In this document: positions 9,277-36,185 of the stretch, piece by piece | Layout of the letters: each line of letters starts with the position of its first letter | Numbering within the stretch: position 1 is the stretch's first letter | Assembly: GCF_000741525.1 (NCBI RefSeq) | Contig: NZ_JGYP01000004.1 | Location: 1-64,000 of the forward strand | Direction: 5' to 3' | DNA from: Bifidobacterium bohemicum DSM 22767 | Lineage (GTDB): Bacteria; Actinomycetota; Actinomycetes; Actinomycetales; Bifidobacteriaceae | Length of the DNA: 64,000 nt | Program-made: the position numbers and the translations under genes | The notes under the pieces: generated by a model | What the model saw: only the letters and a program-made list of their open reading frames with translations | Told to the model about the DNA's origin: nothing | The model's database searches: none

Positions 9277-10263
9277 TTACACCCGCACAATGCGCGGCTT
9301 AGAAGACCGCTTATCAACAATCGGCGACCAACATCGGCAACTACAGCCGGGGTAGTCCAATTGCGACAAAGGCACGATCGCACTGCCGGAATGGAGACCG
9401 TGCGCGCGTAAAGATTCCCCACCCTGCGCGTCATACTCACTGGGGTCACCATAGCCGCTCCACAAAGGTTCGGGAAACAGCTCCTCCGAGAAAGCCGACC
9501 ATTCCTCGATAAGATCAGCAGAGGCATCGCCCAACCATCGAAGCTGCAGCCCATCCATAGCACTCATCGCAAGCGTCCACAAGTGACGGAAACGGTTCAG
9601 ATCACAGCGATACACATCAGGTAGCAGCCAGTTCATTGATGAAATCTGCCGCCAAAATTTCTGCTGTCTGTTGATAAAGTAGTCATGAGCCGGATGTTCC
9701 GGACTCAACGCCTCTCCATTAAGCGTCGAGAACAGCTTGACCATCTCCGGACGCCGAACGTTGAACAGAACGTTATTAAGGCAAAAGCGCGGGAAATAAA
9801 ACAGCTCACAGCCGTCGACGTCGCGAACCCGCGCGTTTTCATAAATGTAGGAATCCGCCTCTTGCGAGTCATAGTAATCCCGCAGAATCATACCCAGCAA
9901 ATCATTCTTGTTGTCGATATAGTGATACAATGCCGCCTCGGTGATGCCGATCTCATCAGCGACATCCTGCAACGACATGCCCCAGAAACCTTTGGAAGCA
10001 ACGACCTTGGCCGCCGCCTGGACGATCTGCGTCCGGCGCTGTTTTGCATCCATCCTTTTACGATGCTCGAAATTGGTCGAATCGAACACCTTTCGCGCCC
10101 GGGGATTCGATGAAAACGTCGAGACCCTTGACAAAGCATGGACGTCCGGCGGAACACGCAGCCCTTTACCCATATGATCCGCTTTCAAGGGGCCTTTAGC
10201 GCCCAAATCGTCCATCACGGCCATAGCGCCAAGCCTAGCACAAGAACATACGTTCAAGCCCAT
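9277..10263 (-). CDS. TetR-family transcriptional regulator
   Basis: A helix-turn-helix of TetR type is clear: RRTQIVQAAAKVVASKGFWG, then SLQDVADEIGITEAALYHYI and DNKNDLLGMIL. The roughly 190 following residues would form the ligand-binding and dimerisation domain and resemble nothing I can name. The start is uncertain: ATG 10263 (GGGAG upstream) gives a long N-terminal extension; ATG 10224 or ATG 10053, right before the helix-turn-helix after AAAAGG, are alternatives. It diverges from the cellobiose phosphorylase gene, and a perfect 17-base palindrome lies between them, so it probably controls that gene and itself. The inducer is unknown. Confidence 0.82.
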   Translation of the reverse strand: MGLNVCSCARLGAMAVMDDLGAKGPLKADHMGKGLRVPPDVHALSRVSTFSSNPRARKVFDSTNFEHRKRMDAKQRRTQIVQAAAKVVASKGFWGMSLQDVADEIGITEAALYHYIDNKNDLLGMILRDYYDSQEADSYIYENARVRDVDGCELFYFPRFCLNNVLFNVRRPEMVKLFSTLNGEALSPEHPAHDYFINRQQKFWRQISSMNWLLPDVYRCDLNRFRHLWTLAMSAMDGLQLRWLGDASADLIEEWSAFSEELFPEPLWSGYGDPSEYDAQGGESLRAHGLHSGSAIVPLSQLDYPGCSCRCWSPIVDKRSSKPRIVRV

Positions 10264-10278
10264 TACTCCCACTTGTTA

Positions 10279-10309
10279 TTGATAAGTCTACAAATAAGAT
10301 TATCTTATT
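10279..10309 (+). promoter_or_regulatory. GH94 promoter with overlapping palindromic operator
   Basis: A TTGATA (10279-10284) and TATCTT (10301-10306) pair, 16 bases apart, forms a plausible promoter. A perfect palindrome, AATAAGAT-T-ATCTTATT, spans 10293-10309 and covers the -10. This is the size and symmetry expected of a TetR-type operator and lies between the divergent regulator and the GH94 gene. Confidence 0.6.
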
Positions 10310-10360
10310 AGTTAAACGATAAAACAAATAGATGATGCCCAAGCATCCAGAAAGGACGTC

Positions 10361-12871
10361 ATGCAATTCGGTCACTTCGACGACGAAGCTCGTGAATATG
10401 TCATCAACACACCAGCCACTCCACTACCTTGGATCAACTACCTGGGCAACGAGAATTTCTTTTCCCTTATTTCCAACACCGCAGGCGGCTACTCGTTCTA
10501 CAAAGACGCCAAGCTCCGTCGCATCAGCAGATATCGATACAACAGCGTGCCCAGCGACAACGGGGCGCGCAGCTTTTATTTGAGCCTGATGAGCGGCGAC
10601 GGCGCAGATGCAAGACCTACGCAAACATGGTCCCCCACCTTCCTGCCGGCCAAGACCACGCTCGATTCATATCGGTGCCGCCAAGGAATTGGCTACACGA
10701 TATTCGAGTCATCAAAATGCGGCATAGACAGCACACTCACCGTTTTCGTGCCGATTGGCGCCAACGCGGAAGTCAACATGCTGCAAGTAACGAACGACAC
10801 CGACGAACGCACGGTGCTGGACGCAACAGCGGCAGTGGAATGGTGCCTGTGGGATGCGACCGACGACGCCACGAACTTCCAACGCAACCTGTCCACAGGC
10901 GAAGTGGAGGTGGAACATGGCGGTGACCGCACACTGCTGTACCACAAAACGGAGTTCAAAGAACGGCGCGACCACTACGCCTTCTACTCGGTAAACGGGC
11001 CAACCACCGGATTCGATACAGACCGGGACGAGTTTCTCGGACTGTTCAACGGCTGGGACAGTCCACAAACCATTGCACAAGGTCACCTGAACGACTCCAT
11101 AGCTCACGGCTGGCATCCAATCGCAGCGCACCGCTCACGACTGATACTTGAACCAGGCGAAAGCCGCACTCTGATTTACCTTCTCGGCTATATTGAAGTG
11201 TCACACGACAACAAATGGGAGGACCCGAACGACCCAGCCAAAGTGAGGCTTATCAACAAGCAGCCGGCGCATGAACTCTACACGCGCTTTGACACCACGG
11301 AAAAGGTCAACGCTGCCTTTGACGAGCTCAAGCGCTACTGGACCGACCTGCTTTCAACCTTCCACGTGGAAAGCGGTGACGCCCGACTCGATCGCATGGT
11401 CAACATCTGGCATCAGTATCAATGCATGGTCACCTTCAACATGTCACGTTCCGCTTCATACTTCGAATCGGGCACCGGACGGGGCATGGGATTCCGCGAT
11501 TCCAATCAGGACCTGCTCGGCTTCGTGCACCTGATTCCCAGGCGCGCACGCGAACGCATCATCGACATCGCCTCCACGCAGAAGGACGACGGGTCGGCAT
11601 GGCATCAGTACCAGCCACTCACCAAGCGCGGCAATGCAGACATCGGTGGAGGATTCAACGACGATCCCCTGTGGCTCATCGCCGGTGCTTACGCCTATCT
11701 TGCAGAGACGGGCGACGACTCGATTCTACGTGAACCTGTGCCGTTCAATAATGTCGAAGGCACCGAAACATCACTGTTGGAACACCTACGACGATCCATC
11801 AACTTTACGCTTACACATCTCGGACCTCACGGCCTGCCGTTGATCGGACGAGCCGACTGGAACGACTGCCTTGACCTCAACTGCTTCTCCAGCGAGCCCG
11901 GCGAAAGCTTCCAGACGGTGGAAAACAACGACACCGGAGTCGCCGAGTCAGTGTTCATTGCCGGCATGTTCGTGCTCTATGGCAATCAGTACGCCGACAT
12001 CATTGAACACTATGGCGCAAAGTGCGGTATAAGCGAAGCTGACGTGAGCCGTGAAGCATCCGGCATCCGCCAAACCACCGCAAAAATGAGCCAGACCGTG
12101 GAAGACGCCGGATGGGACGGTGAGTGGTTCCTGCGCGCCTACGACGCGTATTCCCACCCGGTCGGCTCCCACACCGACACCGAAGGCCAGATTTACATCG
12201 AGCCACAGGGCATGTGCGTAATGGCCGGCATCGGCGTCGAAAGCGGGAAGGCGCAGCAAGCTCTCAAGTCCACCAAGGAACGCCTGACCTGCGACTGGGG
12301 TACGGCCATCTTGGCGCCGGCTTATTCCACCTACCGAATCGAACTGGGGGAAATCTCCTCCTACCCGCGTGGATACAAGGAGAACGGCGGTATTTTCTGT
12401 CACAACAACCCTTGGGTCTCCATCGCCAACTGCAAGGTAGGCAACAACGAGGAAGCCTTCGCGGTCTACCGACGCAACTGCCCGGCTTACTTGGAAGACA
12501 AGTCGGACATCCGGAAGGTGGAGCCTTACGTCTACTGCCAAATGGTGGCCGGTCCGGAATCCTATAGCCTCGGGGAGGGCAAGAACTCGTGGCTCACGGG
12601 AACCGCGGCCTGGACCTTTGTGAACGTCTCGCAGTATCTGCTGGGCATTCGTCCCACCCTAGACGGGCTGATTGTGGAGCCGCACCTTCCAGGCGAGTTC
12701 GACGAGTTAAAGGTAACACGCAAGTATCGCGGAACAACCTATAACATCACGCTGCGGCGCACCGGTTCACGCGGACTGACCGTCGACGGTGGAACCGCTC
12801 AGACCGTCGGCAATCTGATTATCCCGCCGACGGCCGGCACCACACAGGTGGGCGTTCAAGCAACGTTCTAA
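10361..12871 (+). CDS. Cellobiose phosphorylase (GH94)
   Basis: GH94 cellobiose phosphorylases split cellobiose with phosphate into glucose 1-phosphate and glucose in the cytoplasm, saving ATP. The 836-residue product begins FGHFDDEAREYVI with PWINYLGNENFFSLISNTAGGYSFY, the typical start of cellobiose (not cellodextrin or chitobiose) phosphorylases. It has the GMGFRDSNQDLLG motif near residue 375 and the catalytic region G-R-A-D-W-N-D-C-L-D-L near 500. A strong AGAAAGGA site precedes the ATG. It is followed 80 bases later by an esterase gene, likely one operon, under the divergent TetR regulator. In context it would finish the glucan backbone left by the xyloglucan-type enzymes. Substrate is inferred from motifs. 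Confidence 0.88.
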   Translation: MQFGHFDDEAREYVINTPATPLPWINYLGNENFFSLISNTAGGYSFYKDAKLRRISRYRYNSVPSDNGARSFYLSLMSGDGADARPTQTWSPTFLPAKTTLDSYRCRQGIGYTIFESSKCGIDSTLTVFVPIGANAEVNMLQVTNDTDERTVLDATAAVEWCLWDATDDATNFQRNLSTGEVEVEHGGDRTLLYHKTEFKERRDHYAFYSVNGPTTGFDTDRDEFLGLFNGWDSPQTIAQGHLNDSIAHGWHPIAAHRSRLILEPGESRTLIYLLGYIEVSHDNKWEDPNDPAKVRLINKQPAHELYTRFDTTEKVNAAFDELKRYWTDLLSTFHVESGDARLDRMVNIWHQYQCMVTFNMSRSASYFESGTGRGMGFRDSNQDLLGFVHLIPRRARERIIDIASTQKDDGSAWHQYQPLTKRGNADIGGGFNDDPLWLIAGAYAYLAETGDDSILREPVPFNNVEGTETSLLEHLRRSINFTLTHLGPHGLPLIGRADWNDCLDLNCFSSEPGESFQTVENNDTGVAESVFIAGMFVLYGNQYADIIEHYGAKCGISEADVSREASGIRQTTAKMSQTVEDAGWDGEWFLRAYDAYSHPVGSHTDTEGQIYIEPQGMCVMAGIGVESGKAQQALKSTKERLTCDWGTAILAPAYSTYRIELGEISSYPRGYKENGGIFCHNNPWVSIANCKVGNNEEAFAVYRRNCPAYLEDKSDIRKVEPYVYCQMVAGPESYSLGEGKNSWLTGTAAWTFVNVSQYLLGIRPTLDGLIVEPHLPGEFDELKVTRKYRGTTYNITLRRTGSRGLTVDGGTAQTVGNLIIPPTAGTTQVGVQATF

Positions 12872-12951: not shown

Positions 12952-13776
12952 ATGAAATATATTAGGCAGACCATTGAAGGCACAGACGGAAGCCGCGCCG
13001 AATTCGACGGCTACATCATCGACAACAGCAAGGAGATTGACGAAAATCGCGTCCGACCAGCCGTACTGGTCATTCCCGGCGGCGGATATGAAATGACCAG
13101 CGACCGGGAAGCCGAACCGATTGCGCTGAAGATGCTCGGAGCCGGTTTCCATGCATTCGTTTTGCGATACTCCTGCTCGCCGTCGGTCTATCCCACGGCT
13201 TTGCTTGAAGCCGCGCAAGCAATGGCCATCATTCGCGAACACGCAGCGGAATGGCATGTTGACCCCAACGCTGTCATTATCCTCGGTTTCTCCGCCGGTG
13301 GACATCTTGCCGCAAACCTCGCCACTGACGCAGGTGACGAAACGGAACGCGCCCACGGCTACGACCCCGATGCCGTGCGGCCGAATGGCCTGGCATTGAG
13401 CTACGCAGTCCTGACCTCGGGAGAATTCGCCCACCGTAGCAGCATCGAACACTTGCTCGGGGACAAAAAGGATGACCCGGCGATGCTGGAGGAAGTCTCC
13501 TGCGAGCAACACGTCAGCGCCAAGACCCCGCCGACCTTCCTCTGGCACACCGCCACCGACGGCCTAGTGCCCGTGCAGAACTCAATGCTGCTGGCCAATG
13601 CCTGCGTCAATGCCGGGGTGTCCGTGGAGATGCACCTGTACCCGCAAGGTGGGCATGGTCTTTCACTTGGCACGCTGGAGACCGCGTGGGGCGGCGATCT
13701 GGCGAATGTGGAACCGTGCATCCAGACCTGGCCTGATCTGCTCATGGACTGGATCACTCGCAACTTCGCGAAGTAA
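12952..13776 (+). CDS. Alpha/beta-hydrolase esterase (acetyl-xylan-esterase-like)
   Basis: A 274-residue cytoplasmic alpha/beta hydrolase without signal peptide. The oxyanion-hole segment VLVIPGGGYEM, nucleophile elbow G-F-S-A-G-G (Ser near 112), acid HTATDGLVP and catalytic His in G-G-H-G are all present, the arrangement of the acetylesterases near carbohydrate clusters (BD-FAE / CE10-like). It likely removes O-acetyl groups from imported oligosaccharides, but the ester has not been identified. A clear GGAG lies 7 bases before ATG. It follows GH94 on the same strand and ends at a hairpin at 13808-13836. Confidence 0.82.
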   Translation: MKYIRQTIEGTDGSRAEFDGYIIDNSKEIDENRVRPAVLVIPGGGYEMTSDREAEPIALKMLGAGFHAFVLRYSCSPSVYPTALLEAAQAMAIIREHAAEWHVDPNAVIILGFSAGGHLAANLATDAGDETERAHGYDPDAVRPNGLALSYAVLTSGEFAHRSSIEHLLGDKKDDPAMLEEVSCEQHVSAKTPPTFLWHTATDGLVPVQNSMLLANACVNAGVSVEMHLYPQGGHGLSLGTLETAWGGDLANVEPCIQTWPDLLMDWITRNFAK

Positions 13777-13980: not shown

Positions 13981-16044
13981 TCACTGGCAAATCAGCACTT
14001 CGTATGGTTTCAAATCGGCTTCGGTGGGAACTTCGGCATTCCCTAGGATTTCTCTGCTTCCAGCCAAGAATCGCAAATCGACTCCCGAAACCGGCTGACC
14101 TGAGGTGTTGATGACAAAAGTGAACGTCCGCCCATCGTCAGCGGTCCGGCGATCTATCTCGATGCCCTCGGGAGCTATGACAGAATCCAGACCGCTCACG
14201 GACTCCACGACTAGGTCGAACAGCGAATCCATACCGCGCTCGTCCAAAGGGGTACCAACGTAATAGGCGCTACCCGAACCGAACTCATGGACGGTGACCG
14301 CGGGGGAACCGGCATAGAATTCGTTACCGCCATAGTTAGCCAGAACGGTGACATTCTCTCCCTCCGGATGCATAATACTGGCCACGATTTCACCTTTCCC
14401 CGAAAGCGGGGATAAACCTGAGGATGCATACGCAGCAGGTAGCGCGGCACAATCAACCGGTATCTTCGCATCTGGCGCGAGGGCGTCAATTTCCTCAACC
14501 CGCACGCCCATCAGCTTGCGCAACTCCCCCGGATAACCGCCCGGCACCACCAAATCGTGCTCATCGTCCATGCCTGCCATGTAGCCGGTGACGAACTGTC
14601 CGCCGGCACGCACGTAGTCCTCAAGCCGACAGGCCACATGCGGTTTGACCATGATCAGCGCCGGAGCCACGATCAACGGATATCGCGCAAGAGTTTCGGC
14701 ATCGGCGGTGCTCTCGATGAAATCGACGGGGATGTTGTGCTTGTACAGGGCACGATAGAAGCGATGCACTTCGTTGGGATAACTGAACCCCGTGGTGGGG
14801 CCGACCCAGCCTTCCAGAGACCAGTAGCTTTCCCAATCGAACATAATGGCCACACGGGCTTTGGTTGCGCTACCCATCATTGGCTCGGCGCAGCGCTCGA
14901 GTTCGGCGCCAAGACGCTCAGTCTCCCTGAAGACCCTGGTGTTTTCAGTACCATCATGGGCGATAATCGCGCCATGGGAACGCTCCACTCCACCGATGGA
15001 CTGCTTCATTTGGAAGAACTGGACGGTATCGGCCCCGTGAGCGACCGCCTGCCAACTGAGCATGCGTACCTCGCCCGGGCGCTTGACCTTGCAGTAGGGG
15101 AACCAGTTCTGCTGGTTCGGGGTCTGCTCCATGAGCATGAACGGCTTACCTCCACCCACGCCACGCATCAGGTCGTGGCACATGGCGGTGAAGCTGGAAG
15201 GCATATCCATACCCGGGTAGTTGTCCCAGCTGATCACGTCCAGCTGACGACCCCACTTGAAGTAATCAAGATCCTTGAAGGTGCCCATAAGGTTCGTGGT
15301 GATGGGGGTGGTTTTGTCATAACGCCGAATCGCATCACGCTCACGCGTATAACAGGCCAGCAGCGAGTCGTTTTGGAAACGACGGTAGTCCATCAGCAGA
15401 CCGGGAATGACGCTTTTTTCGGTGCCAATGCCATCGCCGTTGGTCGTCGGCGGAACGACATCGTCCCACTGGGTCAGCGTATGCCCCCAATAGTTCGCGC
15501 ACCATGCCTGGTTGAGCGCATCAATGGTGCCATATTGGGCCTTGAGCCACCGCCGGAAATCCTTCGCGCAGTTCTCGCAGTAGCACATGCCGCCATATTC
15601 GTTGCACACATGCCAAGCCACCAAGCCGGGAGTGCCTTGGTACCTCCGAGCAAGACGTAAAGCGAGCTTCTTCGAAAGCCGTTGATAAACCGACGAGCAC
15701 GGACAGGCGTTGTGACGCCCGCCGAAAGCGCGCCTACGGCCATCGGCATCCGCGCGAATCACCTTCGGATGCGTGCGCACCAGCCAAGCGGGCAGGGCGG
15801 CCGTGGATGTGGCCATTACGATGTTGAAATGGCGACTAACCAACAGTTTCACGATTCGGTCGAGCATCGTGAAATCATAATCGTCCTCGTTGGGCTGCAG
15901 CAGCGCCCAAGAAAACACATTGATGGTCACTTCGTTGATGTGGGCGTCCTCGAGCATCTCGATGTCATGTTCCCAGGTTTCTTCCGGCCACTGCTCGGGA
16001 TTCCAGTCCCCTCCGAACAGAAAAGTATCGAATAAAGGCTTCAT
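13981..16044 (-). CDS. GH42 beta-galactosidase
   Basis: GH42 enzymes remove terminal beta-galactose from oligosaccharides in the cytoplasm. The 687-residue protein begins FGGDWNPEQWPEETWEHDI, the family signature. The acid/base Glu is at 149 (C-N-E-Y-G-G) and the nucleophile Glu at 306 (L-M-E-Q-T). Cysteines in NACPC and CYCENC match the structural metal site. The C-terminal third gives the trimerisation and beta-sandwich domains. AAGGAG lies before ATG 16044. It is the last gene of the minus-strand block, 180 bases beyond the secreted GH5 gene. Removal of galactose from xyloglucan side chains is inferred from context; galactan-derived sugars are the alternative. Confidence 0.9.
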   Translation of the reverse strand: MKPLFDTFLFGGDWNPEQWPEETWEHDIEMLEDAHINEVTINVFSWALLQPNEDDYDFTMLDRIVKLLVSRHFNIVMATSTAALPAWLVRTHPKVIRADADGRRRAFGGRHNACPCSSVYQRLSKKLALRLARRYQGTPGLVAWHVCNEYGGMCYCENCAKDFRRWLKAQYGTIDALNQAWCANYWGHTLTQWDDVVPPTTNGDGIGTEKSVIPGLLMDYRRFQNDSLLACYTRERDAIRRYDKTTPITTNLMGTFKDLDYFKWGRQLDVISWDNYPGMDMPSSFTAMCHDLMRGVGGGKPFMLMEQTPNQQNWFPYCKVKRPGEVRMLSWQAVAHGADTVQFFQMKQSIGGVERSHGAIIAHDGTENTRVFRETERLGAELERCAEPMMGSATKARVAIMFDWESYWSLEGWVGPTTGFSYPNEVHRFYRALYKHNIPVDFIESTADAETLARYPLIVAPALIMVKPHVACRLEDYVRAGGQFVTGYMAGMDDEHDLVVPGGYPGELRKLMGVRVEEIDALAPDAKIPVDCAALPAAYASSGLSPLSGKGEIVASIMHPEGENVTVLANYGGNEFYAGSPAVTVHEFGSGSAYYVGTPLDERGMDSLFDLVVESVSGLDSVIAPEGIEIDRRTADDGRTFTFVINTSGQPVSGVDLRFLAGSREILGNAEVPTEADLKPYEVLICQ

Positions 16045-26177: not shown

Positions 26178-27713
26178 TCATCGTTCGATGATCTTGAACC
26201 CGATCGGCAGATCATGCCGACCGGACAGTCGTGGGTTCCTTTGCTCCACCGGGAAGATCACCAAGCCGTCATTCGTGCATTCGTACCGGACCGGGCCGGC
26301 CCCCAGCTGTTCGACACCGGCTATGACTCCATGAAACGGTGGGACTTCATGGTCGTGATACGACGCGAGACTTGCAATGCGCACGGCGCCTGAAGGCACA
26401 CCATCCGAATCCCCGCCCTTGGAGGGCAGTTTCGCCGGGTCGACCGGATTCGCCGGATTAAGGCAAAAAGCATAGACGTCGCCGTTCTTCGAAGTGAACC
26501 GGAAGTCGCCAGCCGTCCATCTCTTCGGTTCTGCATCGGAGAACGACCCGTTCTGCGCAATGGTGGGGCCTTCCCCGGCAAGCAGCCATGGACGAGTAGC
26601 ATAAATCCCCTCGCCGTTGGCATCAAGCCAAGCGCCGACACCTTCGAGCAAATCGCGATCGTGCCGGGAGATGGAACCGTCCGCCTTAGGACCGACGTTG
26701 AGCAGCAGATTTCCGTTCTTGCTGGCCGCGTCGATGAGCGTGACCAACAGCTCGGCCAGATCCTTGTAATCCAGCGTCTTCGTATAGCACCATGAGTCAC
26801 GGGCGATGGAGGTATCGGTCTGCCATACAAATGGTGCGGCCTGCGCCTGCCCGCCGCGTTCCATATCATAGATTCCAGCGCCCCAAGCCATACCGCCATC
26901 CTTATAGCAGATGGAAACGGGCAAACCCCATTCAACGCCTCGATTGTAGTAGAAAGCCGCCATTTTGCGGACATATGGCTTAAAAGCGGAGTGGTGAATC
27001 CACCAATCAAAATACAGTAATTCGGGGCGATAACCGTCGATAAGCTCACAGACGCGCAACAACCAGTCGTCAAGATACTCGGCGGTCGGCGCGGGCACGC
27101 TGAACAGGTCACCGTCATCCCGTTCGGGCATGGCCGGCCAATAAAAATCGCCACGTCGCATCGGCTCACACACGTCGGAGTCGAAATCACGGCCATGACC
27201 CATGAACCACCAGTGCTCGGCTCGGTGATCGGAGACGGCAAAATGCAGTCCATGGCGGAGGGTCGCCTCACGCAGCTCACCGATGACGTCGCGGTGGGGA
27301 CCTTTTTCAAAGGAATTCCAATGCGAAAGTTTACTGCGATACATCTGGAAGCCGTCATGGTGCTCAGCCACGGGAAAATAATACCGGGCGCCGGCCCGCT
27401 TGAACAGGTCGAGCCATTCATCGGGGTCGAACCGTTCGGCCGTGAACATGGGGATGAAATCTTTATAGCCGAAATCCTTTTGCGGGCCGTACGTTTCGAC
27501 ATGGTGGTCGAATTCGGGATAACCCTTGATATACATGTTGCGCGAATACCACTCATTGCGGTATTCCGGCACGGTGTAAAGCCCCCAATGAGTGAAGATA
27601 CCGAATTTTGCATCATGGAACCAGTCCGGCTGCGGCGCACGGCACAGCGATTCCCAGCTATCGCAATACGGCCCGGAGGCGACGACCTCGTCTATAAGCT
27701 CCTTGCTAATCAC
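26178..27713 (-). CDS. GH29 alpha-L-fucosidase
   Basis: A 511-residue intracellular GH29 protein. PDWFHDAKFGIFTHWGLYTVPEY, EHHDGFQMY and the nucleophile Asp236 in LLYFDWW are family hallmarks, and GNLLLNVGPKADG follows. The C-terminal sandwich follows from about 390. Translation starts at GTG 27713 after GGAAGGAA. It lies between the GH3 gene and the first binding-protein gene, inside the minus-strand block. It would remove fucose from imported oligosaccharides; fucosylated xyloglucan fits the neighbours, but fucosyl-1,2-galactose links are more often cut by GH95, so host-glycan substrates remain possible. Confidence 0.88.
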   Translation of the reverse strand: MISKELIDEVVASGPYCDSWESLCRAPQPDWFHDAKFGIFTHWGLYTVPEYRNEWYSRNMYIKGYPEFDHHVETYGPQKDFGYKDFIPMFTAERFDPDEWLDLFKRAGARYYFPVAEHHDGFQMYRSKLSHWNSFEKGPHRDVIGELREATLRHGLHFAVSDHRAEHWWFMGHGRDFDSDVCEPMRRGDFYWPAMPERDDGDLFSVPAPTAEYLDDWLLRVCELIDGYRPELLYFDWWIHHSAFKPYVRKMAAFYYNRGVEWGLPVSICYKDGGMAWGAGIYDMERGGQAQAAPFVWQTDTSIARDSWCYTKTLDYKDLAELLVTLIDAASKNGNLLLNVGPKADGSISRHDRDLLEGVGAWLDANGEGIYATRPWLLAGEGPTIAQNGSFSDAEPKRWTAGDFRFTSKNGDVYAFCLNPANPVDPAKLPSKGGDSDGVPSGAVRIASLASYHDHEVPPFHGVIAGVEQLGAGPVRYECTNDGLVIFPVEQRNPRLSGRHDLPIGFKIIER

Positions 27714-27859: not shown

Positions 27860-29632
27860 CTATTTGGAGGCGGCGTCAGCCCCGCTCTTGCTGTACTCCC
27901 TGACGATGGCCTTGCGGGCCTTGTCCTGGTCCTTCGCGTTCTTCATATCGAAGTCCAAAACCTGTTTCATGCCAAGCCCATCGGTCTGGGTGCGCATGCC
28001 GTCGACGATCTTCTGGAATTCGTCGTCGCTCTTGGCGAACACCGCCTTCCACGAATCATTGACGATCTCCGTCTTCACGGAGCCGCGTAGCGTCGAGATC
28101 CGCGAATCCTCATCGGGCTGCACGTAGGTGGCGCCTGGGGCGATGTCGATCATCTTGTTCTTCTCGAGATATTCCATCGTGGTCTTGGCGCCTCCCATAT
28201 GCTCGGACCAATCCTTGTTGAGCGGGCTGTCATTCGCCTTTTCGATCTCGCTGGGCCACAGCGTGGCGTTGAAGGAGTAACCGGTGCCGGGGTCGATGTC
28301 GCTGACCAACTCGGTCGGAAAGTTCAGCTGGGAGATCCCATCGGTATAGGAGCCGCTACCCCACTTGGTCGGTACATTGGCCTTGCCGCCGTTGAGCACC
28401 TTCGAACCGAAGTCCGTGAGCACCGGCTTGCCGTCCTTGACGGTCCAGTTCAGGTCCTTCGGACCGGCGGCGCCGCCGGTCTGTGCACCGGAGTCATAGA
28501 CACCCTCGGAAGAATATAGCCAATCAATGAATTTCACGAGACGCTGCTTGTTCCTGGCCTTGGAGCCCAGTGCGATCATCGTCGTGCCGCCATTGGGAGT
28601 CGCGCCATAGGAGAAGATCTTCTGGTCCTTGAGCGGAGCGATCATGAATCCCTTACCGGCGGCCCTGTTCTCATTGGTGTTGTAGGCGGCCTGTCCGAGC
28701 CATGGCCAGAAGGAGAAGAGCACCTTGCCGTTCTTGTACTTGGTGTTCATGGTGTCGTAGTTTTGCGTAGTGGATTCCGGATCAACCAACCCCTGGCGTT
28801 GTGCTTCATTGAAGAACTTGAGCACGCGGTCGTAAATGCCATCCTTCTGGGTGATCGATTCAAAATCGGAGCCATCGGCCTTAGCAAGCACGAAGCCCAT
28901 CTCGTCATAACCGTAATAGCAGGCAGGCTGCTTGACATTGTTCATCATGTTGCCGTCCCAGTCCTTGAACAGGCTCATGGCGTAGATGCTGTTGTCGCCC
29001 GACTCGGCACGGGCCTTGTCCTGCATGCCCTTCATGACGGGGAGCAAGTCTTCGAGGGTATTGATCTCCGGATAACCGATGGCCTTGTAAAGATCCCAGC
29101 GCACATACGGGCCGAACGTGGGTTCGAGGCCTTCTCCTGCAACGGTGGGTTTACGCGTCGAAACGGAACCGGGTATGGCCCACACACCCGACTTCTGGCC
29201 GATTTGCCTGTTCAAGGCGTCCGTGGCATCCTTGTGCTTCTTGATATTGCTCATCCCGGACAGGTACGGGGTCATATCGTCAATGAGCTTGGCGCGCACA
29301 AGCTTCGAACCGCGACCGGAACCATAACCCGTAATGATGATGTCCCCCAAATTGCCGGCGGCCGAACGGGTGTCGAATAGGGTGCTGCCACCGCCCGCCA
29401 CGTTGGGAGAGATGTAGTTGAGCTTCATGTTGAACTTGTCTTTGACGAGCTTGGCGAACCACCCCTTCTGCACGCCCTGATAATTCGCCAGATCGTCGTA
29501 GACGGTGACCGTCATCATCGAACCGTCATCCTTCTGGTCGGCGGAATTGCCGCCGGCGCCACAGCCGGCGAACATCATCGCCATGGAAACGGCCGCCGCC
29601 ACCGACATGACGGTCTTTCTTCTCGATATCAT
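27860..29632 (-). CDS. Sugar ABC transporter solute-binding lipoprotein (paralogue 1)
   Basis: A long (590-residue) extracellular binding protein of the type paired with LplB/YtcP permeases. The signal peptide ends in a lipobox (MMFAGC), so it is lipid-anchored outside the membrane. ATG 29632 is chosen for the GAGGAG 7 bases upstream. It is strongly similar to the next gene upstream, and 171 bases near the 3' end are identical between the two (27905-28075 and 29889-30059). It likely captures complex oligosaccharides for the two permeases at 31.7-33.7 kb. Which sugar each paralogue prefers cannot be seen. Confidence 0.9.
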   Translation of the reverse strand: MISRRKTVMSVAAAVSMAMMFAGCGAGGNSADQKDDGSMMTVTVYDDLANYQGVQKGWFAKLVKDKFNMKLNYISPNVAGGGSTLFDTRSAAGNLGDIIITGYGSGRGSKLVRAKLIDDMTPYLSGMSNIKKHKDATDALNRQIGQKSGVWAIPGSVSTRKPTVAGEGLEPTFGPYVRWDLYKAIGYPEINTLEDLLPVMKGMQDKARAESGDNSIYAMSLFKDWDGNMMNNVKQPACYYGYDEMGFVLAKADGSDFESITQKDGIYDRVLKFFNEAQRQGLVDPESTTQNYDTMNTKYKNGKVLFSFWPWLGQAAYNTNENRAAGKGFMIAPLKDQKIFSYGATPNGGTTMIALGSKARNKQRLVKFIDWLYSSEGVYDSGAQTGGAAGPKDLNWTVKDGKPVLTDFGSKVLNGGKANVPTKWGSGSYTDGISQLNFPTELVSDIDPGTGYSFNATLWPSEIEKANDSPLNKDWSEHMGGAKTTMEYLEKNKMIDIAPGATYVQPDEDSRISTLRGSVKTEIVNDSWKAVFAKSDDEFQKIVDGMRTQTDGLGMKQVLDFDMKNAKDQDKARKAIVREYSKSGADAASK

Positions 29633-29798
29633 CGTAAGTCTCCTCGCTTTCATCGGTTCGGCACCGTCACCGAATTGATCACCGCACCCCGGACATCCCT
29701 TCCGACCTCGGATCGGATGTTCAAGGCTGCAACGCTCACCGCTGACAGATGAGCAAGCATTGCAGCCGCCTCACAACCCAGCCATGTGAAGCGGTGCA

Positions 29799-29830: not shown

Positions 29831-29840
29831 CAATCCGACG

Positions 29841-31595
29841 CTACTTCGAAGAACCCTCGTTCTTCTCGCGGTTGGCATATTCCTTGAGGATGGCCTTGCG
29901 GGCCTTGTCCTGGTCCTTCGCGTTCTTCATATCGAAGTCCAAAACCTGTTTCATGCCAAGCCCATCGGTCTGGGTGCGCATGCCGTCGACGATCTTCTGG
30001 AATTCGTCGTCGCTCTTGGCGAACACCGCCTTCCACGAATCATTGACGATCTCCGTCTTAATCGATCCACGCAGAGTCGAGATCTGCGAATCCTCATCGG
30101 GCTGGATATAACCGGCACCTGGGGCGACCGCGAGCATGTTGTTCTTCTCGAGATATTCCATCGTGGTCTTGGCGCCTCCCATATGCCCCGACCAATCCTG
30201 TTCCAAAGGCGAGTTGTTGAATTCCTCGATGACGGACTTCCAATCGGTGGAGGAGTAGTCCTCACCGGTCGTCGGGTCGATGTCGGTGGCGTTGACGGAC
30301 TTGAAGTTCAGTTGAGGCTGACCGTCAGACCATGAACCGCCGCCAAACTCCTTGGGCACCGTTGCGCTCTGATCGTTCTGCAGCTTCTTACCGAAATCAG
30401 TCAGAACCGGCTTGCCGTCCTTGATGTCGTAATTCATGCCCTTCACATTGCCGGCCATGGCATAGGCGCCTTCATTCGAGTACAGCCAGTTGATGAACTT
30501 GACCAGCCGCTGCTTGTTCCTGGCCTTTGAACCGAGTCCGATGAACGAACCGGTGCCGTTGGGTGTGGCGCCGTACGAGACGATCTTCATGTTCTGCAAC
30601 GGGGCGACCATGAAGCCGACCCCTTGCTTCTTGTGGTCAGTGGTGTTGTACTGCGCAGGCCCCAAATAGCTCCAGAAGGAGAAGAGCACCTTGCCGTTCT
30701 TGTACTTGGTGGTCAACGTATCGAAGTTCTGCGTGGACGATTCCGGGTCGACCAGCCCTTCTTGGTTGGCCTTGTTGAACCAAGCCAAGGTCTTGTCGTA
30801 CATGCCGTCCTTTTGGGTGACGGACTGGTAATCGTGGCCGTCGACCGCAGCGAGTACGAAGCCCATCTCGTCATAGCCGTAGTAGCAGATCGGCTGCTTG
30901 ATGTTGTTCATCATGTTGCCGTCCCAGTCCTTGAACAAGGAGATGGCATAAATGCTGTTGTCACCCGTTTCCTTGCGAGCCAGATCCTGTTCCTGCTTGA
31001 GCACATCGAGGAAGTCGTCCATGTTCTTGATTTCCGGATACCCGAGCTTCTTATAAAGATCCCAGCGGATGTACGGGCCAAACACCGGCTCGTTGCCTTC
31101 CGACGGCTGGTCGGGCGCCTTGGTGGACACGCTCATCGGCACGCCCCATACGCCGCTCGACTGCCCGGCGACCTTATTGAGGTTGTCGGTCGCGTTCTTA
31201 TACTTCTTGATGGAATCCATGCCGTTGAGGTACGGCGTCATATCATCCACAAGCTTGGAGCGGATCAACTTGTTGAGTCGACCGTTGCCCGCTCCGGTGA
31301 TGATGATGTCACCAAGATTGCCCGCCGCGGAACGAGTGTCGAAGGTGGTGCTGCCGCCACCACTCACGTTCGGGGAGATGTAGTTGAGTTTCAGATTGAA
31401 CTTATCCTTGACGAGCTTGGCGAACCACCCCTTTTGAACCCCTTGATAGTTCGCGAGGTCATCATAGACATCGACCTTCATCAACGAGTCGTCATCCTTC
31501 GGGGTCGCGGAATTGCCGCCGCCACAACCGGCGAGACCCATCATCACCGACAGCGTCACCGCAATGCCGGCTACAACCTTCTTCTTTAGAGACAT
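29841..31595 (-). CDS. Sugar ABC transporter solute-binding lipoprotein (paralogue 2)
   Basis: A 584-residue lipoprotein with lipobox LAGC after a basic, hydrophobic signal (SLKKKVVAGIAVTLSVMMG). It shares near-identical stretches with paralogue 1, for example VYDDLANYQGVQKGWFAKLV and the C-terminal DQDKARKAI region, while the middle differs more. It is the gene nearest the permeases in transcription order. ATG 31595 follows AAAGGAAG/GTGGAG. Two binding proteins for one permease pair suggests a broadened set of ligands. Both belong to the large oligosaccharide-binding group seen with YesL/LplB-type systems. Confidence 0.9.
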   Translation of the reverse strand: MSLKKKVVAGIAVTLSVMMGLAGCGGGNSATPKDDDSLMKVDVYDDLANYQGVQKGWFAKLVKDKFNLKLNYISPNVSGGGSTTFDTRSAAGNLGDIIITGAGNGRLNKLIRSKLVDDMTPYLNGMDSIKKYKNATDNLNKVAGQSSGVWGVPMSVSTKAPDQPSEGNEPVFGPYIRWDLYKKLGYPEIKNMDDFLDVLKQEQDLARKETGDNSIYAISLFKDWDGNMMNNIKQPICYYGYDEMGFVLAAVDGHDYQSVTQKDGMYDKTLAWFNKANQEGLVDPESSTQNFDTLTTKYKNGKVLFSFWSYLGPAQYNTTDHKKQGVGFMVAPLQNMKIVSYGATPNGTGSFIGLGSKARNKQRLVKFINWLYSNEGAYAMAGNVKGMNYDIKDGKPVLTDFGKKLQNDQSATVPKEFGGGSWSDGQPQLNFKSVNATDIDPTTGEDYSSTDWKSVIEEFNNSPLEQDWSGHMGGAKTTMEYLEKNNMLAVAPGAGYIQPDEDSQISTLRGSIKTEIVNDSWKAVFAKSDDEFQKIVDGMRTQTDGLGMKQVLDFDMKNAKDQDKARKAILKEYANREKNEGSSK

Positions 31596-31681
31596 CTGCT
31601 CCACTTCCTTTCTTTTACCAATCCGCCAACTGGCGCAACGGATTGTACCATTCTGTTTCTGGGCGATTCACTCCGGCTTGT

Positions 31682-32614
31682 TCACCCCTTCACGGCGCCG
31701 AGCATCATGCCCTTGACGAAGTAACGCTGGAAGAACGGATAAACGAACATAATCGGCAACACGACGATGACGGAAACCGTCATGCGGATGGACGTAGGAG
31801 TCTGCTGGGTGGCCATCGCCGCCACATTCATGGCGGTGCCGGCGTTCGCCTTGACCGACGCCGCCAGGGAATTAGCCTGGTTGATGTATGTGTAGAGCAG
31901 ATACTGCAACGAATAGAGCTTGTTGTCGGTTATGTATATCAACGTGTCCTGGAAGGAGTTCCACTGTCCGACGGCGGAGAAAATGGCCACGGTCGCCAAG
32001 ATCGGCGAGCACATGGGCATGATGATCTTGAAGAAGATCGTCATGGTGCCGGCGCCGTCCATCTCGGCCGCCTCCTCAAGGCTCGAGGGGATGGATTCGA
32101 TGAACGTCTTGACCAGGATGATGTTGAACGGCTGCACGATAGCCGGCAAGATATAAACCCAGAACGTGTTGGTCAGTCCAAGGTTCTTCATGGTGATGAA
32201 CGCCGGGATGATGCCCGCGTTGAAGTACATGGTGATCACGAAGAAGCGGTACCAGAACTGCCGATGCCACATCTTCTTCTGAGTAAACATGAATCCGAGG
32301 AAGGCACTGGCCATAACCGTAAGCACCGTGCCGATTACCGTACGCCCCAAGGAAACCAGAGAGGCCTGCCCCATTCCCTCAAGACCGAAGACCTGCTTGT
32401 AATTTTCAAGATGGAAACCCTGAATCCACCAGTTGACCTTGCCCGCTGCGGACGCTGCGTTGTCGGAGACCGAATTGATCATCAAATACCAGAACGGGTA
32501 CGTGCACAGGAAAGCGAACAGGATGAAGAAAGCGCCGTTGAATACCGCGAACGCCTTTTCACCCGTAGTGCGCCGTTGAGCCGGGGAAACACTTTTTACT
32601 GCTTTTTTCGACAT
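31682..32614 (-). CDS. Sugar ABC transporter permease (LplC/YtcP-like)
   Basis: A 310-residue membrane protein with six predicted helices and the permease EAA loop (E-E-A-A-E-M-D-G-A-G) that docks the ATPase. The C-terminal QRYFVKGMMLGAVKG is characteristic of the YtcP/LplC group. ATG 32614 follows AGGAGAGG. Second gene of the block, 25 bases after the partner permease. Neither permease has a neighbouring ATPase; MsmK at 55.5 kb could serve. Confidence 0.9.
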   Translation of the reverse strand: MSKKAVKSVSPAQRRTTGEKAFAVFNGAFFILFAFLCTYPFWYLMINSVSDNAASAAGKVNWWIQGFHLENYKQVFGLEGMGQASLVSLGRTVIGTVLTVMASAFLGFMFTQKKMWHRQFWYRFFVITMYFNAGIIPAFITMKNLGLTNTFWVYILPAIVQPFNIILVKTFIESIPSSLEEAAEMDGAGTMTIFFKIIMPMCSPILATVAIFSAVGQWNSFQDTLIYITDNKLYSLQYLLYTYINQANSLAASVKANAGTAMNVAAMATQQTPTSIRMTVSVIVVLPIMFVYPFFQRYFVKGMMLGAVKG

Positions 32615-32639
32615 TGTTTTTCCTCTCCTTTTCGGTCGC

Positions 32640-33671
32640 TCAGATAATCGATTCGCCACGCGTGCGCTTGGATATCGCATTAACCGATATCAGCAGCACC
32701 ACGCTCACCAACGATTTGAGCATCGAAATGGCCGTAGCCAACGACAGCGAGTTGTTGCCCATGCCGATGTTGTAGACGTAGAGGTCAAGCACCTGAATGT
32801 GCTTGAGATTGAAAGCGTTTTGGAACACGAAATACTGATCCATGCCATTGTTCAGGAAGTTGGATACGGAGAGCATCAGCAGCACCATGTACGTAGGCAT
32901 GAGCTGCGGAACGGTGACATGGAGAATCTGCTGCCAGCGATTCGCGCCGTCGACCTGTGCCGCTTCGTAAAGCTCCTGGTCGATGCCCGAGATACTCGCC
33001 AAATACATGATCGAGCCCCAGCCCAGTCCCTTCCAAAGACTCCACAGAAGCATCTTGATCCACGTCCACGAGTCGGAGTCAAGGAACTTGACCGGCTCGG
33101 CGATAAGACGCAGGTTCTCAAGCAGCTGGTTGATCATGCCGGTTGAGGAGAACATGGCGAAGGCCACGGAATAGACCAACACCCAGCTGATGAAATTAGG
33201 CAGGGTGGTCAGCGTCTGGACCAGGTTCTTGAACCACCTCGTACGAATTTCATTCAGACCGATGGCGAAGAACAGGGGGAAGATGGACGTTAGAATGCCC
33301 AAGCCGCTCATGGCGAAGGTGTTAATCAGCACCTGCGCGATGGTGTGCAGCTGGGCTGGATTCTGCACCAGCATCTTGAACCACTGCAAACCGACGAACT
33401 TGCTTTCGGACAAGGGAATAGGCGGCTGATAATCGAAAAACGCGTAAACCCAACCGAACAGAGGAAGGTAGCTGAAAATCAGAGATAGGATAATGAACGG
33501 GACAATCAGCATCCATAGCTTGAAGCCCTGTCTCCTTACGGACTGGCCTCCTCCCCGATCTTTTTTAACGTGATTGCGCGCAACACCGTTCTTACGCTTA
33601 AGGCCCGTCGCCCTATCAGGGCCACTCTTGGTCAGCGATACCGTAGATGCATCACTTTGGGATTCCACCAT
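32640..33671 (-). CDS. Sugar ABC transporter permease (LplB-like)
   Basis: A 343-residue permease beginning with a hydrophilic, basic tail of about 50 residues and then six helices. The EAA loop reads Y-E-A-A-Q-V-D-G-A-N-R-W, usual for LplB. The start is placed at ATG 33671, just after AAGGAGG; because the spacing is tight, GTG 33668 could be used instead. The longer frame to 33791 would include the promoter region and is unlikely. First gene of the minus-strand block, about 110 bases from a strong promoter. Confidence 0.9.
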   Translation of the reverse strand: MVESQSDASTVSLTKSGPDRATGLKRKNGVARNHVKKDRGGGQSVRRQGFKLWMLIVPFIILSLIFSYLPLFGWVYAFFDYQPPIPLSESKFVGLQWFKMLVQNPAQLHTIAQVLINTFAMSGLGILTSIFPLFFAIGLNEIRTRWFKNLVQTLTTLPNFISWVLVYSVAFAMFSSTGMINQLLENLRLIAEPVKFLDSDSWTWIKMLLWSLWKGLGWGSIMYLASISGIDQELYEAAQVDGANRWQQILHVTVPQLMPTYMVLLMLSVSNFLNNGMDQYFVFQNAFNLKHIQVLDLYVYNIGMGNNSLSLATAISMLKSLVSVVLLISVNAISKRTRGESII

Positions 33672-33807: not shown

Positions 33808-34124
33808 TCCGCGCTTTTCCCTTGAAATAACAAGGAATCTGAGCCTTTTTGTTCTCTTGAGAAAACAGAGGATTTCGAACGACATGACCCATCATCCCTT
33901 ACACCGGCACACAGGTTTCATGAAGTTCACCGACCTCTGAAACGACCATGTCAAATCGTTTAATTATCGTGGTGGCTACGACTTTCATGGGATGGCGCGT
34001 TCACTCAGGACGTGACTCATCGCATGATAGCCGCAAGTCCTTAACGACGGGAATCCGCATCATCCGCCCTACCGAGCGCGATTGCCCGTCTCCGAACATA
34101 GACAGTTCCGAGGTCAAACGGAAA

Positions 34125-34814
34125 ATGCGCTTCAATATCGACAGTCCATTCTGGCAGTTTCTGACCTTGTGCGTAAGGTACTTCATCCTCAACCTGTTAT
34201 TCGTGATCTCCTGCCTTCCCGTGGTGACCATCGGACCGGCGCGGGCCGCACTATACAGCACGGTCTTCGCCTATAACGATAACGAAGACGTCAATCTGGG
34301 ACGCGAATACATCCGCCGCTTCATCCACGAATTCCCGCGTGCCCTCGGAGCCTTTGCCATATTCATCGCGCTGGCCGCGCTTATCGTCTTCGCCCTCGCC
34401 TTTTGGAATCACTTAGGGACGAAGGCCGCATGGGTCGTTCTTCCGATACTCATTGCGGCAGGAATCCTGGTGGCGGTAACGTTCGAATACTATTTTCCGA
34501 TTCAAGCGCGGTTCACGAACACGTTTAGAAACACCTGGTCGAACGCGCTCAAGATGCCCTGGGCCGTTTTCGGTAAAACGCTCATACTGCTGGCGATTGA
34601 CGTGGCGGCAATAACGCTTTTCGTGTTCACCAAATGGCTACGCATATTATTCGTCCTACTGGGATTCTCTTGGCTCGCATACGCGAAATCGCTGGTCTAT
34701 CTCAAAGCGTTCGACCAAATTGAGCGGGTAAGCCGCGGTGAAGCGGGCGACGGCAGTACCTCCAATCCTTTCACCCCAGAGAATCACTCACTGCCCACCG
34801 CCTCGTTAACCTGA
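34125..34814 (+). CDS. YesL/DUF624-family membrane protein
   Basis: A 229-residue protein with about five membrane helices. RFNIDSPFWQFLTL, then ILNLLFVISCLPVVTIGPARAALY is the hallmark of DUF624 (YesL), a family of unknown mechanism almost always next to LplB/YtcP-type sugar transporters, where it is thought to aid transport. ATG 34125 is chosen because similarity starts at M-R-F-N; upstream residues do not fit. It diverges from the transporter operon and precedes a serine hydrolase gene. Confidence 0.85.
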   Translation: MRFNIDSPFWQFLTLCVRYFILNLLFVISCLPVVTIGPARAALYSTVFAYNDNEDVNLGREYIRRFIHEFPRALGAFAIFIALAALIVFALAFWNHLGTKAAWVVLPILIAAGILVAVTFEYYFPIQARFTNTFRNTWSNALKMPWAVFGKTLILLAIDVAAITLFVFTKWLRILFVLLGFSWLAYAKSLVYLKAFDQIERVSRGEAGDGSTSNPFTPENHSLPTASLT

Positions 34815-34898
34815 AAATCATTTGATGCGCCTGGACACAGTACGACGAACCGCAAATCCGGATACCACAAGACCACCAACCGAAGAAGGCACCGAAGA

Positions 34899-36185
34899 AT
34901 GAACAAGGACACCCAACAACTCCTCCAACTGACCCTCGACAAGGCAGTCGACAATGGCACCGTGGCAGGCGTAAACCTTTTGGTGACGCAGCATGGCCAA
35001 GACAGACATTACGTTCAGTCAGGCATGCGATCGATTGAACGAAACCAGGCAATGACCCGCGACACGATATTCCGCTTGTATTCACAGACCAAACCAATCA
35101 CGGGGACAGCCGTGATGATGCTCGTGGAACGCGGGCTCATCGATCTGGCCGAACCGGTAAGCGACTTCCTACCTGGATTCAAGGGCCAGCGCGTCAGCCT
35201 TGACTACCCTGATTCCGAACGCCCGGCCGTCACAATAACCACCGGGTCCGGTTCCGGGGACTCACGACGAAGCGATGTACCTGCGATTGAAACCACTGAA
35301 GCGACCCGGCCTGTACTTATCCGAGATCTGCTGACCATGACCTCCGGCCTCGTCTACCCCGGCAACGACAGTGCTGCGGCCCGTTGGACGGCAGGCCTTT
35401 TTGATGAAATCGATGCGCGGCTGAAAACACCGAAGGCCCTGACCACCATCCAAATCGCGAACCGGCTTGGAAGCGCCCCGCTGCTGTTTCAGCCTGGAAG
35501 TCATTGGATGTACGGCACCTCGGCGGACGTACTCGGCGCAGTGGTGGAAGTCGTCAGCGGCAAACGGTTCGGCGACTTCCTCCGACAAGAAATTTTCGAG
35601 CCGCTTGGAATGCGCGACACGGCGTTTTTCGTGCCGAAGGACAAAATCGATCGGCTTGCCGCAGTATATGACAACCCATCAAACCCCGTGGACCCGGATA
35701 ACGCCGGCCTGCCCTTACATGAAATCGAAACCGATCACCTTGGGGTGCAATACCGGCCAACCATCGACCCCTCTTATCAGGCCGGGGGTGCGGGGCTAAA
35801 GTCCACGGTCGACGATTACGCCAAGTTTGGCCAAATGCTGCTGAACGGCGGGACCGCCCCGGACGGCACCAAACTCATACAACCGGCCACCATCCGCTTC
35901 ATGACGACTTCAGGACTCACCCCACAGACGCAGGCCGAATACGAAAACTGGCAGAACGGCTACGGATACAACACGTTGATGCGCACTGCGCAACGACCCG
36001 GGCGAAGCGAAACAATCTGCAACGTCGGTGAGTTCGGCTGGGATGGCTGGCTGGGCACGTTCTTCTGCGACGACCCGGCCACCGGCACCACCTTCCTGAT
36101 GATGTATCAGCTGACCAATTCAGGCACGACGCCATTCACTCGTGCGGTGAAGAACATCGTGTTCTCTCATTTGGACGACGAATAA
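34899..36185 (+). CDS. Beta-lactamase-fold serine hydrolase (class C / esterase type)
   Basis: A 428-residue cytoplasmic protein with the penicillin-binding/class C beta-lactamase fold. The catalytic S-x-x-K motif is S-Q-T-K near residue 60, the Tyr motif Y-G-T near 206, and the RDLLTMTSGL segment is typical. The third K-T-G-like box is degenerate. Relatives include carboxylesterases and D-aminopeptidases. The neighbours suggest an esterase working on acetylated sugars, but this is only inference. It follows the YesL-like gene by 84 bases and probably shares its transcript. Confidence 0.8.
   Translation: MNKDTQQLLQLTLDKAVDNGTVAGVNLLVTQHGQDRHYVQSGMRSIERNQAMTRDTIFRLYSQTKPITGTAVMMLVERGLIDLAEPVSDFLPGFKGQRVSLDYPDSERPAVTITTGSGSGDSRRSDVPAIETTEATRPVLIRDLLTMTSGLVYPGNDSAAARWTAGLFDEIDARLKTPKALTTIQIANRLGSAPLLFQPGSHWMYGTSADVLGAVVEVVSGKRFGDFLRQEIFEPLGMRDTAFFVPKDKIDRLAAVYDNPSNPVDPDNAGLPLHEIETDHLGVQYRPTIDPSYQAGGAGLKSTVDDYAKFGQMLLNGGTAPDGTKLIQPATIRFMTTSGLTPQTQAEYENWQNGYGYNTLMRTAQRPGRSETICNVGEFGWDGWLGTFFCDDPATGTTFLMMYQLTNSGTTPFTRAVKNIVFSHLDDE

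Follow-up and report, generated by a model that had tools for sequence, protein, structure and literature searches.

Which glycan is used by a bifidobacterial gene cluster that sets an ATP-binding cassette (ABC) importer beside enzymes of many glycoside hydrolase (GH) families? The question is raised by a cluster of ~25 kb in Bifidobacterium bohemicum DSM 22767 (draft genome of 2.05 Mb in 5 contigs, with a 16S at most 98% identical to that of other Bifidobacterium members), which was studied in positions 1-64,000 of contig NZ_JGYP01000004.1, a stretch of 64,000 nucleotides hereafter called the window. A preliminary description had taken the cluster for a complete xyloglucan system. Because of a YicI-type GH31, a secreted GH5_4-X2-CBM46 enzyme, GH29, GH43 and GH94, together with the co-occurrence of the binding protein of the importer and the GH31 in 26 of 26 genomes, the cluster is very likely a bifidobacterial xyloglucan-utilisation locus. 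The proposed substrate is well supported by sequence, but completeness has to be qualified, as the gene of the secreted GH5 is frame-broken in the assembly.

Gene content and cytoplasmic enzymes

Domains were called by searching the open reading frames (ORFs) of the window with Pfam and NCBIfam profiles and by sequence comparison with the PDB, and every domain named beforehand was recovered far beyond chance by the profile searches (Table 1). Eleven genes follow one another on the minus strand. The first to be transcribed are those of two ABC permeases and of two binding proteins, followed by GH29, GH3, GH31, GH43, a GH5 without export signal, the secreted GH5-X2-CBM46 and GH42. Divergent genes lie on both sides: on the left those of GH94 and of an alpha/beta hydrolase, beyond which stands a TetR regulator gene, and on the right those of a membrane protein of YesL type and of a hydrolase with beta-lactamase fold. 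The six enzymes of families GH94, GH42, GH43, GH31, GH3 and GH29 (all at Pfam E-values of 3e-52 or better), the intracellular GH5, the importer with its two binding proteins (two BPD_transp_1 permeases and two lipobox proteins) and the YesL protein (a DUF624 match) were thereby confirmed, while other items of the preliminary description stood in part. Both folds were found for the two esterase-type hydrolases (BD-FAE-like and beta-lactamase), but only one of 28 relatives has the beta-lactamase-fold gene near the cluster, and all three domains of the secreted GH5-X2-CBM46 are present, but split over two frames instead of lying in one ORF. Moreover, eleven co-directional genes had been placed behind one strong promoter; the genes were found, but the candidate site, TTGACA-17-TATTAT just upstream of the first permease, belongs to a kind found twice against 1.5 times expected by chance, so that its support is its position, and no search for internal promoters was made.

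The GH31 scored 1129 bits with the NCBIfam model of YicI alpha-xylosidase (NF007940), nearly twice the cut-off of 606, while the two alpha-glucosidase models listed stayed under their own cut-offs. Compared with E. coli YicI (794-800 bits), its residues D415, D482 and C306 align to the conserved D416, D482 and C307, respectively the nucleophile, the acid/base and an active-site cysteine of YicI. Furthermore, the GH94, the sole PF17167 match in the genome, reached 1061 bits over residues 1-828 with the cellobiose phosphorylase 3rrs, as against 380 bits with chitobiose, 72-74 with cellodextrin and 40 with laminaribiose phosphorylases. Neither a hydrophobic N-terminus nor an export signal was seen in GH42, GH31 and GH3, and an export signal was likewise not seen in the second GH5, which keeps the NE and GEY motifs and is closest in the PDB to 6xrk (224 bits), its matches also including the xyloglucanases 2jep and 3zmr, endoglucanases and lichenases. 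The GH29 is nearest to an exo-alpha-L-galactosidase (7ljj), presumably BpGH29. BpGH29 belongs to a group of GH29 enzymes some of which are reported to liberate fucose from xyloglucan (PMC11189522). The genome also has a xylose isomerase and a xylulokinase-like gene, the latter at 372 bits, just under the cut-off of 380.

Taken as a route, the secreted GH5_4-X2-CBM46 would cut xyloglucan outside the cell, and the branched oligosaccharides would enter through the ABC importer, served by its two lipoprotein binding proteins and probably energized by an MsiK-type ATPase encoded elsewhere in the window and presumably shared. Once inside, GH29 would remove fucose (or L-galactose), GH43 arabinose and GH42 galactose, in this presumed order, and the cytoplasmic enzymes would dismantle the oligosaccharides to cellobiose, which GH94 likely splits with phosphate. 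The TetR protein may regulate the locus.

Distribution and conservation of the locus

Across 112 Bifidobacterium species genomes, the GH31 had a match at E<=1e-30 in 60, and copies at least 69% identical to it occurred in 30 (that of the window included, and one partial with a stop). The binding protein was detected at E<=1e-60 in 26 of the 112, all of them among the 30 genomes with a close GH31, the other 82 having no such match (Fisher p ~1e-21, uncorrected for phylogeny). Apart from that of the window, 29 genomes have a close GH31, and synteny was analysed in 28 of them, in stretches of 27.5-39.8 kb chosen by GH31; the 29th (G095) has a short contig seen only as L097. Neighbours were counted at identities of at least 38% over at least 60% of the length, and the counts (Table 1) are lower bounds, some stretches being short. 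GH31 itself counts 28, having been the criterion of choice, and Sir2 and OtsAB were near the cluster in none of the 28. These counts point to a core formed by the importer with GH29, GH3, GH31 and GH42, to which GH43, GH94 and the GH5s are accessory, the flanks lying outside the locus. The comparison with other bifidobacterial genomes, suggested beforehand as a check, thus returned syntenic relatives across the 28 examined. The secreted GH5 type appeared in five of the 112 genomes (E<=1e-20), each copy inside the locus, and many carriers may take up oligosaccharides released by others, although GH74, GH44, GH12 and GH9 were not searched in them.

The best 80 named loci comprised 14 from Bifidobacterium and 66 from other organisms. 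Among the former, two of B. asteroides (L094 and L096) had a close GH31 and did not share the rest of the locus. A bee-gut origin thus gained no support from these two loci, nor from a search of papers. Among the latter, five loci of Enterococcus and Tetragenococcus (L103-L106 and L109) had permeases 61-75% identical to those of the window along with binding proteins, four of them also with GH29, in the same ~22-kb stretch as a YicI-type GH31; this likeness suggests horizontal exchange between phyla. As a separate observation, close GH31 copies without adjoining binding protein, GH29 or GH42 were seen in G082, G084, G089, L094 and L096, this alpha-xylosidase type being found also outside the locus.

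Weighing of the substrate

The neighbour counts bear on another explanation, namely a locus for beta-glucans and cello-oligosaccharides in general, in which the GH5s would act on mixed-linkage glucan or glucomannan, GH3 and GH94 on cello-oligosaccharides, and the GH31 would be accidental. Its appeal lies in the broad beta-glucan activity of GH5_4-X2-CBM46 enzymes, which also act on mixed-linkage beta-glucan and lichenan (PMC4817029), in the lichenases found among the relatives of the signal-less GH5, and in a GH94 that is cellobiose-type by similarity. However, the genes that recur in the 28 loci chosen by GH31 are GH42, GH3 and GH29 (23, 23 and 22), with the secreted GH5, the second GH5 and GH94 being optional (4, 3 and 11), and a fucosidase, a galactosidase and an alpha-xylosidase are useless on linear beta-glucans. 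This explanation is therefore improbable.

Still less credible is that the locus serves fucose- or galactose-bearing glycans of the host or of other origin (those of milk or mucin, or N-glycans), with the GH31 as an alpha-glucosidase. Host-glycan loci of bifidobacteria often contain GH29 and GH42, which speaks for it, as does the fold of the binding protein, resembling among others the human milk oligosaccharide (HMO)-binding Blon_2347. Moreover, N-glycan islands of marmoset bifidobacteria include GH31 genes called alpha-glucosidases (PMC8406136). Yet no hexosaminidase, lacto-N-biose (LNB) phosphorylase, sialidase or mannosidase was found in Pfam scans of the locus ORFs, on which ground a host-glycan locus was rejected; the GH31 lies far above the cut-off for YicI alpha-xylosidase with the alpha-glucosidase models below theirs, and neither cellulase-type GH5s nor a cellobiose-type GH94 fits such a locus.

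Besides the breadth of GH5_4-X2-CBM46 activity, several observations weigh against xyloglucan as the substrate. The GH31 has R307 (22838-22840 of the window, minus strand) at the place of YicI F308, beside the conserved cysteine, a phenylalanine known to be important from mutant work, and this change could tune specificity; the protein also ends ~100 residues before YicI does. The GH43 is nearest in the PDB to a beta-xylosidase (5z5d, 303 bits), followed, in favour of xyloglucan, by BoGH43A (227 bits) and BoGH43B (224 bits), the arabinofuranosidases of the Bacteroides ovatus xyloglucan locus. Four of the 30 close-GH31 genomes do not have the binding protein, so GH31 alone is not diagnostic, and binding protein 1 is 14-16% identical to solved proteins (best ten rows), so that its ligand cannot be read off. 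Lastly, the locus has only a TetR regulator and no two-component system, whereas clostridial loci have one, and the secreted GH5 has a frame break near 17,760.

Secreted GH5 and its frame break

The GH5_4-X2-CBM46 enzymes 5e09, 5xrc and 4v2x are the nearest PDB entries to the secreted GH5. Its three modules stand in order and the catalytic glutamates of GH5 are kept (NEP and GEF motifs), and the AlphaFold model of an intact copy, P0001, reached a target TM-score of 0.91 against 4v2x. Enzymes of this kind, BlCel5B and BhCel5B, act on xyloglucan (PMC4817029).

In the window, ORF 17472-18704 holds the signal peptide along with the beginning of the GH5, and ORF 16225-17724, in another frame, holds the remainder, so that the secreted enzyme of the assembly cannot be read as one protein. 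The intact database copy P0001 (825 residues; 5 member sequences, 4 contigs) matched the two pieces ungapped, with 313 of 313 residues identical for the N-terminal one and 496 of 499 for the C-terminal one, and the three substitutions indicate that it comes from a different sequence than that of the window. The break stems either from an error in the assembly or from a loss in the strain itself, and in the latter case the strain would be dependent on oligosaccharides that its neighbours release. A real inactivating mutation, by which the strain would be an oligosaccharide scavenger like perhaps many cluster-bearing species, is a serious possibility, if a somewhat doubtful one, and is a sub-question to the choice of substrate, not a rival to it. 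It agrees with the two pieces being in different frames and with 21 of the 26 binding-protein genomes having no secreted GH5 of this type (E<=1e-20; other kinds of endo-xyloglucanase were not searched). On the other hand, an intact P0001 exists, the ungapped matches leave no further damage in the compared parts, and a draft of 5 contigs may hold sequencing errors.

Internal sortase-type signal

The N-terminal module of the secreted GH5 was read on P0001, with which the N-terminal piece of the window is identical. A signal peptide is followed by a beta domain of ~80 residues, the motif LAATG, a hydrophobic segment, RRK, a second hydrophobic segment ending in ASA/A, and the GH5 domain. The features of sortase anchoring are all there (signal peptide, LPXTG-like motif, hydrophobic stretch and positive tail), but the motif is internal, at 143-147 of 825, and not C-terminal. 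The same arrangement of LxxTG, hydrophobic segment and AxA site ahead of the GH5 domain was found in 15 of the 120 listed homologues (P0001-P0003, P0005, P0006, P0009-P0012, P0014, P0015, P0018, P0019, P0035 and P0066), of which P0018 and P0035 begin too late for a whole first signal peptide. Fourteen of them, P0019 being left out, were aligned (A1), and in an alignment of 13 of these (A2) the L, T and G of LxxTG were invariant. Many other homologues, several from Lachnospiraceae, Clostridium and Paenibacillus, are without the module, some having a C-terminal LPxTG instead. In the shorter homologues P0007 and P0004, the latter possibly truncated, the hydrophobic segment at the N-terminus lines up with the second one of the others, as though this were their own signal peptide, while P0093 of B. 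choloepi has a lipobox-like N-terminus instead.

The N-terminal beta domain had no Pfam or NCBIfam match above cut-off in six proteins searched at E<=10, the best weak ones being of the order of DUF11 at 0.015 in P0010, and when the N-terminal module of P0006 served as the query, the only five proteins retrieved were already in the list of GH5 homologues. A profile built from the 13 N-terminal parts matched in 94 of the 112 genomes at E<=0.01. Among the matches listed, full-length or nearly full-length ones came only from this genome, G027, G103 and G017, the remaining ones being weaker and mostly confined to the LxxTG-hydrophobic part. The eight non-GH5 matches with a locus assigned are all sorting signals at the C-terminus, with the motif beginning 32-36 positions before the end (stop included). 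The LPXTG surface proteins of bifidobacteria have the same kind of LxxTG-hydrophobic segment as the secreted GH5, but theirs is C-terminal, whereas in the GH5 proteins it is internal and followed by a second hydrophobic segment, an AxA site and the enzyme. Likewise, BhCel5B and BlCel5B have the same GH5_4-X2-CBM46 order, but not the surface module, with its internal sortase-type signal, at the N-terminus of the bifidobacterial-type GH5s. The genome has five sortases (PF04203 matches over the cut-off), and no internal sorting signal of this kind was found in a limited literature search.

It may tentatively be proposed, from these motifs and with considerable doubt, that the secreted GH5s are two-in-one proteins, in which a complete surface protein is fused to a second enzyme led by its own signal peptide. 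A sortase would cut inside the polypeptide, bolting the N-terminal domain to the wall, and a signal peptidase would cut past the second hydrophobic segment, with the GH5-X2-CBM46 part being released or left tethered, so that one gene would give two extracellular products at a fixed 1:1 ratio. The plain alternative is a membrane hairpin with a dead motif. Apart from this, the homologue P0005 (853 residues) stands for a cluster of 1070 member sequences and has an N-terminal module nearly the same as that of G027; the internal-signal architecture may be common in sequenced samples.

Importer, binding proteins and ATPase

The importer consists of two permeases and the lipoprotein binding proteins, with a candidate ATPase encoded elsewhere. 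Neither binding protein had a Pfam family match. They are ~70% identical to each other, as adjacent tandem paralogues, and the model of binding protein 1 (pLDDT, the predicted local distance difference test score, of 87) has a fold like those of AlgQ2, a chondroitin-disaccharide-binding protein and Blon_2347, which fits oligosaccharide binding. Such an adjacent pair is unusual: a second copy was present in the examined stretch of three of 24 relatives (G030, G053 and G075), 11-14 kb off and never adjacent, and ~30 kb off in G027. At the DNA level, a block of 300 nucleotides at the 3' ends of the tandem genes is 91% identical, other blocks being 73-80% identical, which suggests recent gene conversion. 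The MsiK/UgpC-type ATPase contains OB_MalK as well as a TOBE_2 domain, and the Rfam msiK RNA motif lies directly upstream of its gene (56598-56655, minus strand); it is possibly the shared energizer of the importers of the window.

Comparison with known systems

Xyloglucan islands have been predicted in bifidobacteria before. The XG-1 islands of marmoset Bifidobacterium MARM_A1, B. myosotis and B. hapali are predicted to comprise an alpha-xylosidase, a beta-glucosidase and an alpha-fucosidase (PMC8406136). The B. hapali locus L087, which may be the published XG-1 island, is syntenic with the window in YesL, two permeases, a binding protein, GH29, GH3, GH31, GH43, GH42, TetR and the esterase, at 51-81% identity. 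Beyond it, the window has the second tandem binding protein, the signal-less GH5, the secreted GH5-X2-CBM46 and a nearby GH94.

In Ruminiclostridium cellulolyticum, an ABC importer, the same enzyme families and a cellobiose phosphorylase have been tied experimentally to xyloglucan use, with a binding protein of nanomolar affinity for XXXG; an adjacent AraC-type two-component system is described for all cellulosome-producer clusters (PMC4780118 and PMC8576529). The window has in common with Ccel_2451-2458 and CbpA of that species an ABC importer that includes a lipoprotein binding protein but has no ATPase gene beside it, together with GH42, GH31 and GH3 that are cytoplasmic (in the window, by sequence) and a phosphorylase for cellobiose. 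Unlike in R. cellulolyticum, GH94, GH29, GH43 and the GH5s are inside the locus of the window, the regulator is of TetR type and not an AraC-type two-component system, and the secreted enzyme is a GH5_4-X2-CBM46 in place of the cellulosomal Cel9U, Cel9X, Cel44O and Xgh74A.

The locus had also been likened to that of B. ovatus (XyGUL), with which it shares GH5, GH31, GH43 and GH3, BoGH43A/B being homologous to its GH43. However, the window differs in its ABC uptake and phosphorolytic end, and the ABC locus of R. cellulolyticum and the XG-1 islands are the fitter comparison; a Bacteroides-type polysaccharide utilization locus was rejected, no SusC/SusD Pfam match being found among the locus genes. 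The locus has thus already been described in kind and its own novelty is modest. What is new is the co-distribution of binding protein and GH31 in 26 of 112 genomes, the presence of the secreted GH5 in only five, and its putative internal sorting signal.

Features of the window

Some of the gene limits in Table 1 call for comment. The first permease probably starts at 33671, where GGAGGA precedes an ATG, and not at the opening of its ORF at 33791, and the ORF of the TetR regulator is probably over-long at its N-terminus, as the helix-turn-helix starts only at residue 83. The YesL protein was rejected as a member of MusI (85 bits against a cut-off of 160). A complete rRNA operon (5S, 23S and 16S; 2474-7762, minus strand) adjoins the cluster. 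At 39782-46883, genes were found for a GH36 alpha-galactosidase, a ROK-family protein and an ABC importer, perhaps for raffinose-type sugars; they were rejected as part of the locus, having a separate transporter, with the intervening OtsAB near the cluster in none of the relatives.

Table 1. Features of the cluster and related elements in the window, with the number of relatives (of 28) in which each gene lies near the cluster
Feature	Position	Strand	Evidence	Near cluster
TetR-type regulator	9277..10272	-	Pfam TetR_N 9.5e-10	21
GH94, cellobiose-phosphorylase type	10361..12871	+	Pfam 3e-146	11
Alpha/beta hydrolase, BD-FAE/acetyl-esterase-like	12952..13776	+	Pfam BD-FAE 3.7e-23	20
GH42 beta-galactosidase type	13981..16044	-	Pfam 5e-138; PDB 3tts 696 bits	23
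Secreted GH5, C-terminal piece (most of GH5, X2, CBM46)	16225..17724	-	Pfam GH5 8e-31, CBM46 3e-12, X2 1e-10	4
Secreted GH5, N-terminal piece (signal peptide to start of GH5)	17766..18704	-	Within ORF 17472-18704	
Second GH5, GH5_4-like, predicted cytoplasmic	18827..19975	-	Pfam 1.7e-41	3
GH43 with C-terminal beta-sandwich	20030..21610	-	Pfam 2e-65	15
GH31 YicI-type alpha-xylosidase, 679 residues	21719..23758	-	Pfam 4e-99; NCBIfam NF007940	
GH3 beta-glucosidase type	23885..26074	-	Pfam 3e-52	23
GH29 alpha-L-fucosidase type	26178..27713	-	Pfam 7.6e-94	22
Lipoprotein binding protein 2	27860..29653	-	Lipobox FAGC; tandem paralogue of binding protein 1	
Lipoprotein binding protein 1	29841..31604	-	Lipobox LAGC	24
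ABC permease, YtcP-like	31682..32680	-	Pfam BPD_transp_1	24
ABC permease, LplB-like	32640..33671	-	Pfam BPD_transp_1	24
Promoter-like site TTGACA-17-TATTAT	33807-33779	-	11 of 12 consensus positions	
YesL/MusI-like membrane protein (DUF624), divergent	33948..34814	+	Pfam DUF624	25
Beta-lactamase-fold hydrolase, peripheral	34899..36185	+	Pfam 8e-63	1
MsiK/UgpC-type ABC ATPase	55469..56596	-	NF008653 464 bits (cut-off 432)	

Implications

The cluster is a genuine and conserved locus, probably for xyloglucan, incomplete as assembled, with one architecturally unusual secreted enzyme. Judged by the binding protein, 26 of 112 species genomes carry an ABC-type locus of this probable function, which recurs in syntenic form across the genus. 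Of these 26, the 21 that do not have this secreted GH5 are probable scavengers, unless another endo-enzyme serves them, as opposed to the few that have it; cross-feeding on a major hemicellulose of the diet can thereby be put to the test. Furthermore, should the internal sortase signal work, a single gene would supply both a hydrolase and a wall-bound partner outside the cell, by a route that would be new.

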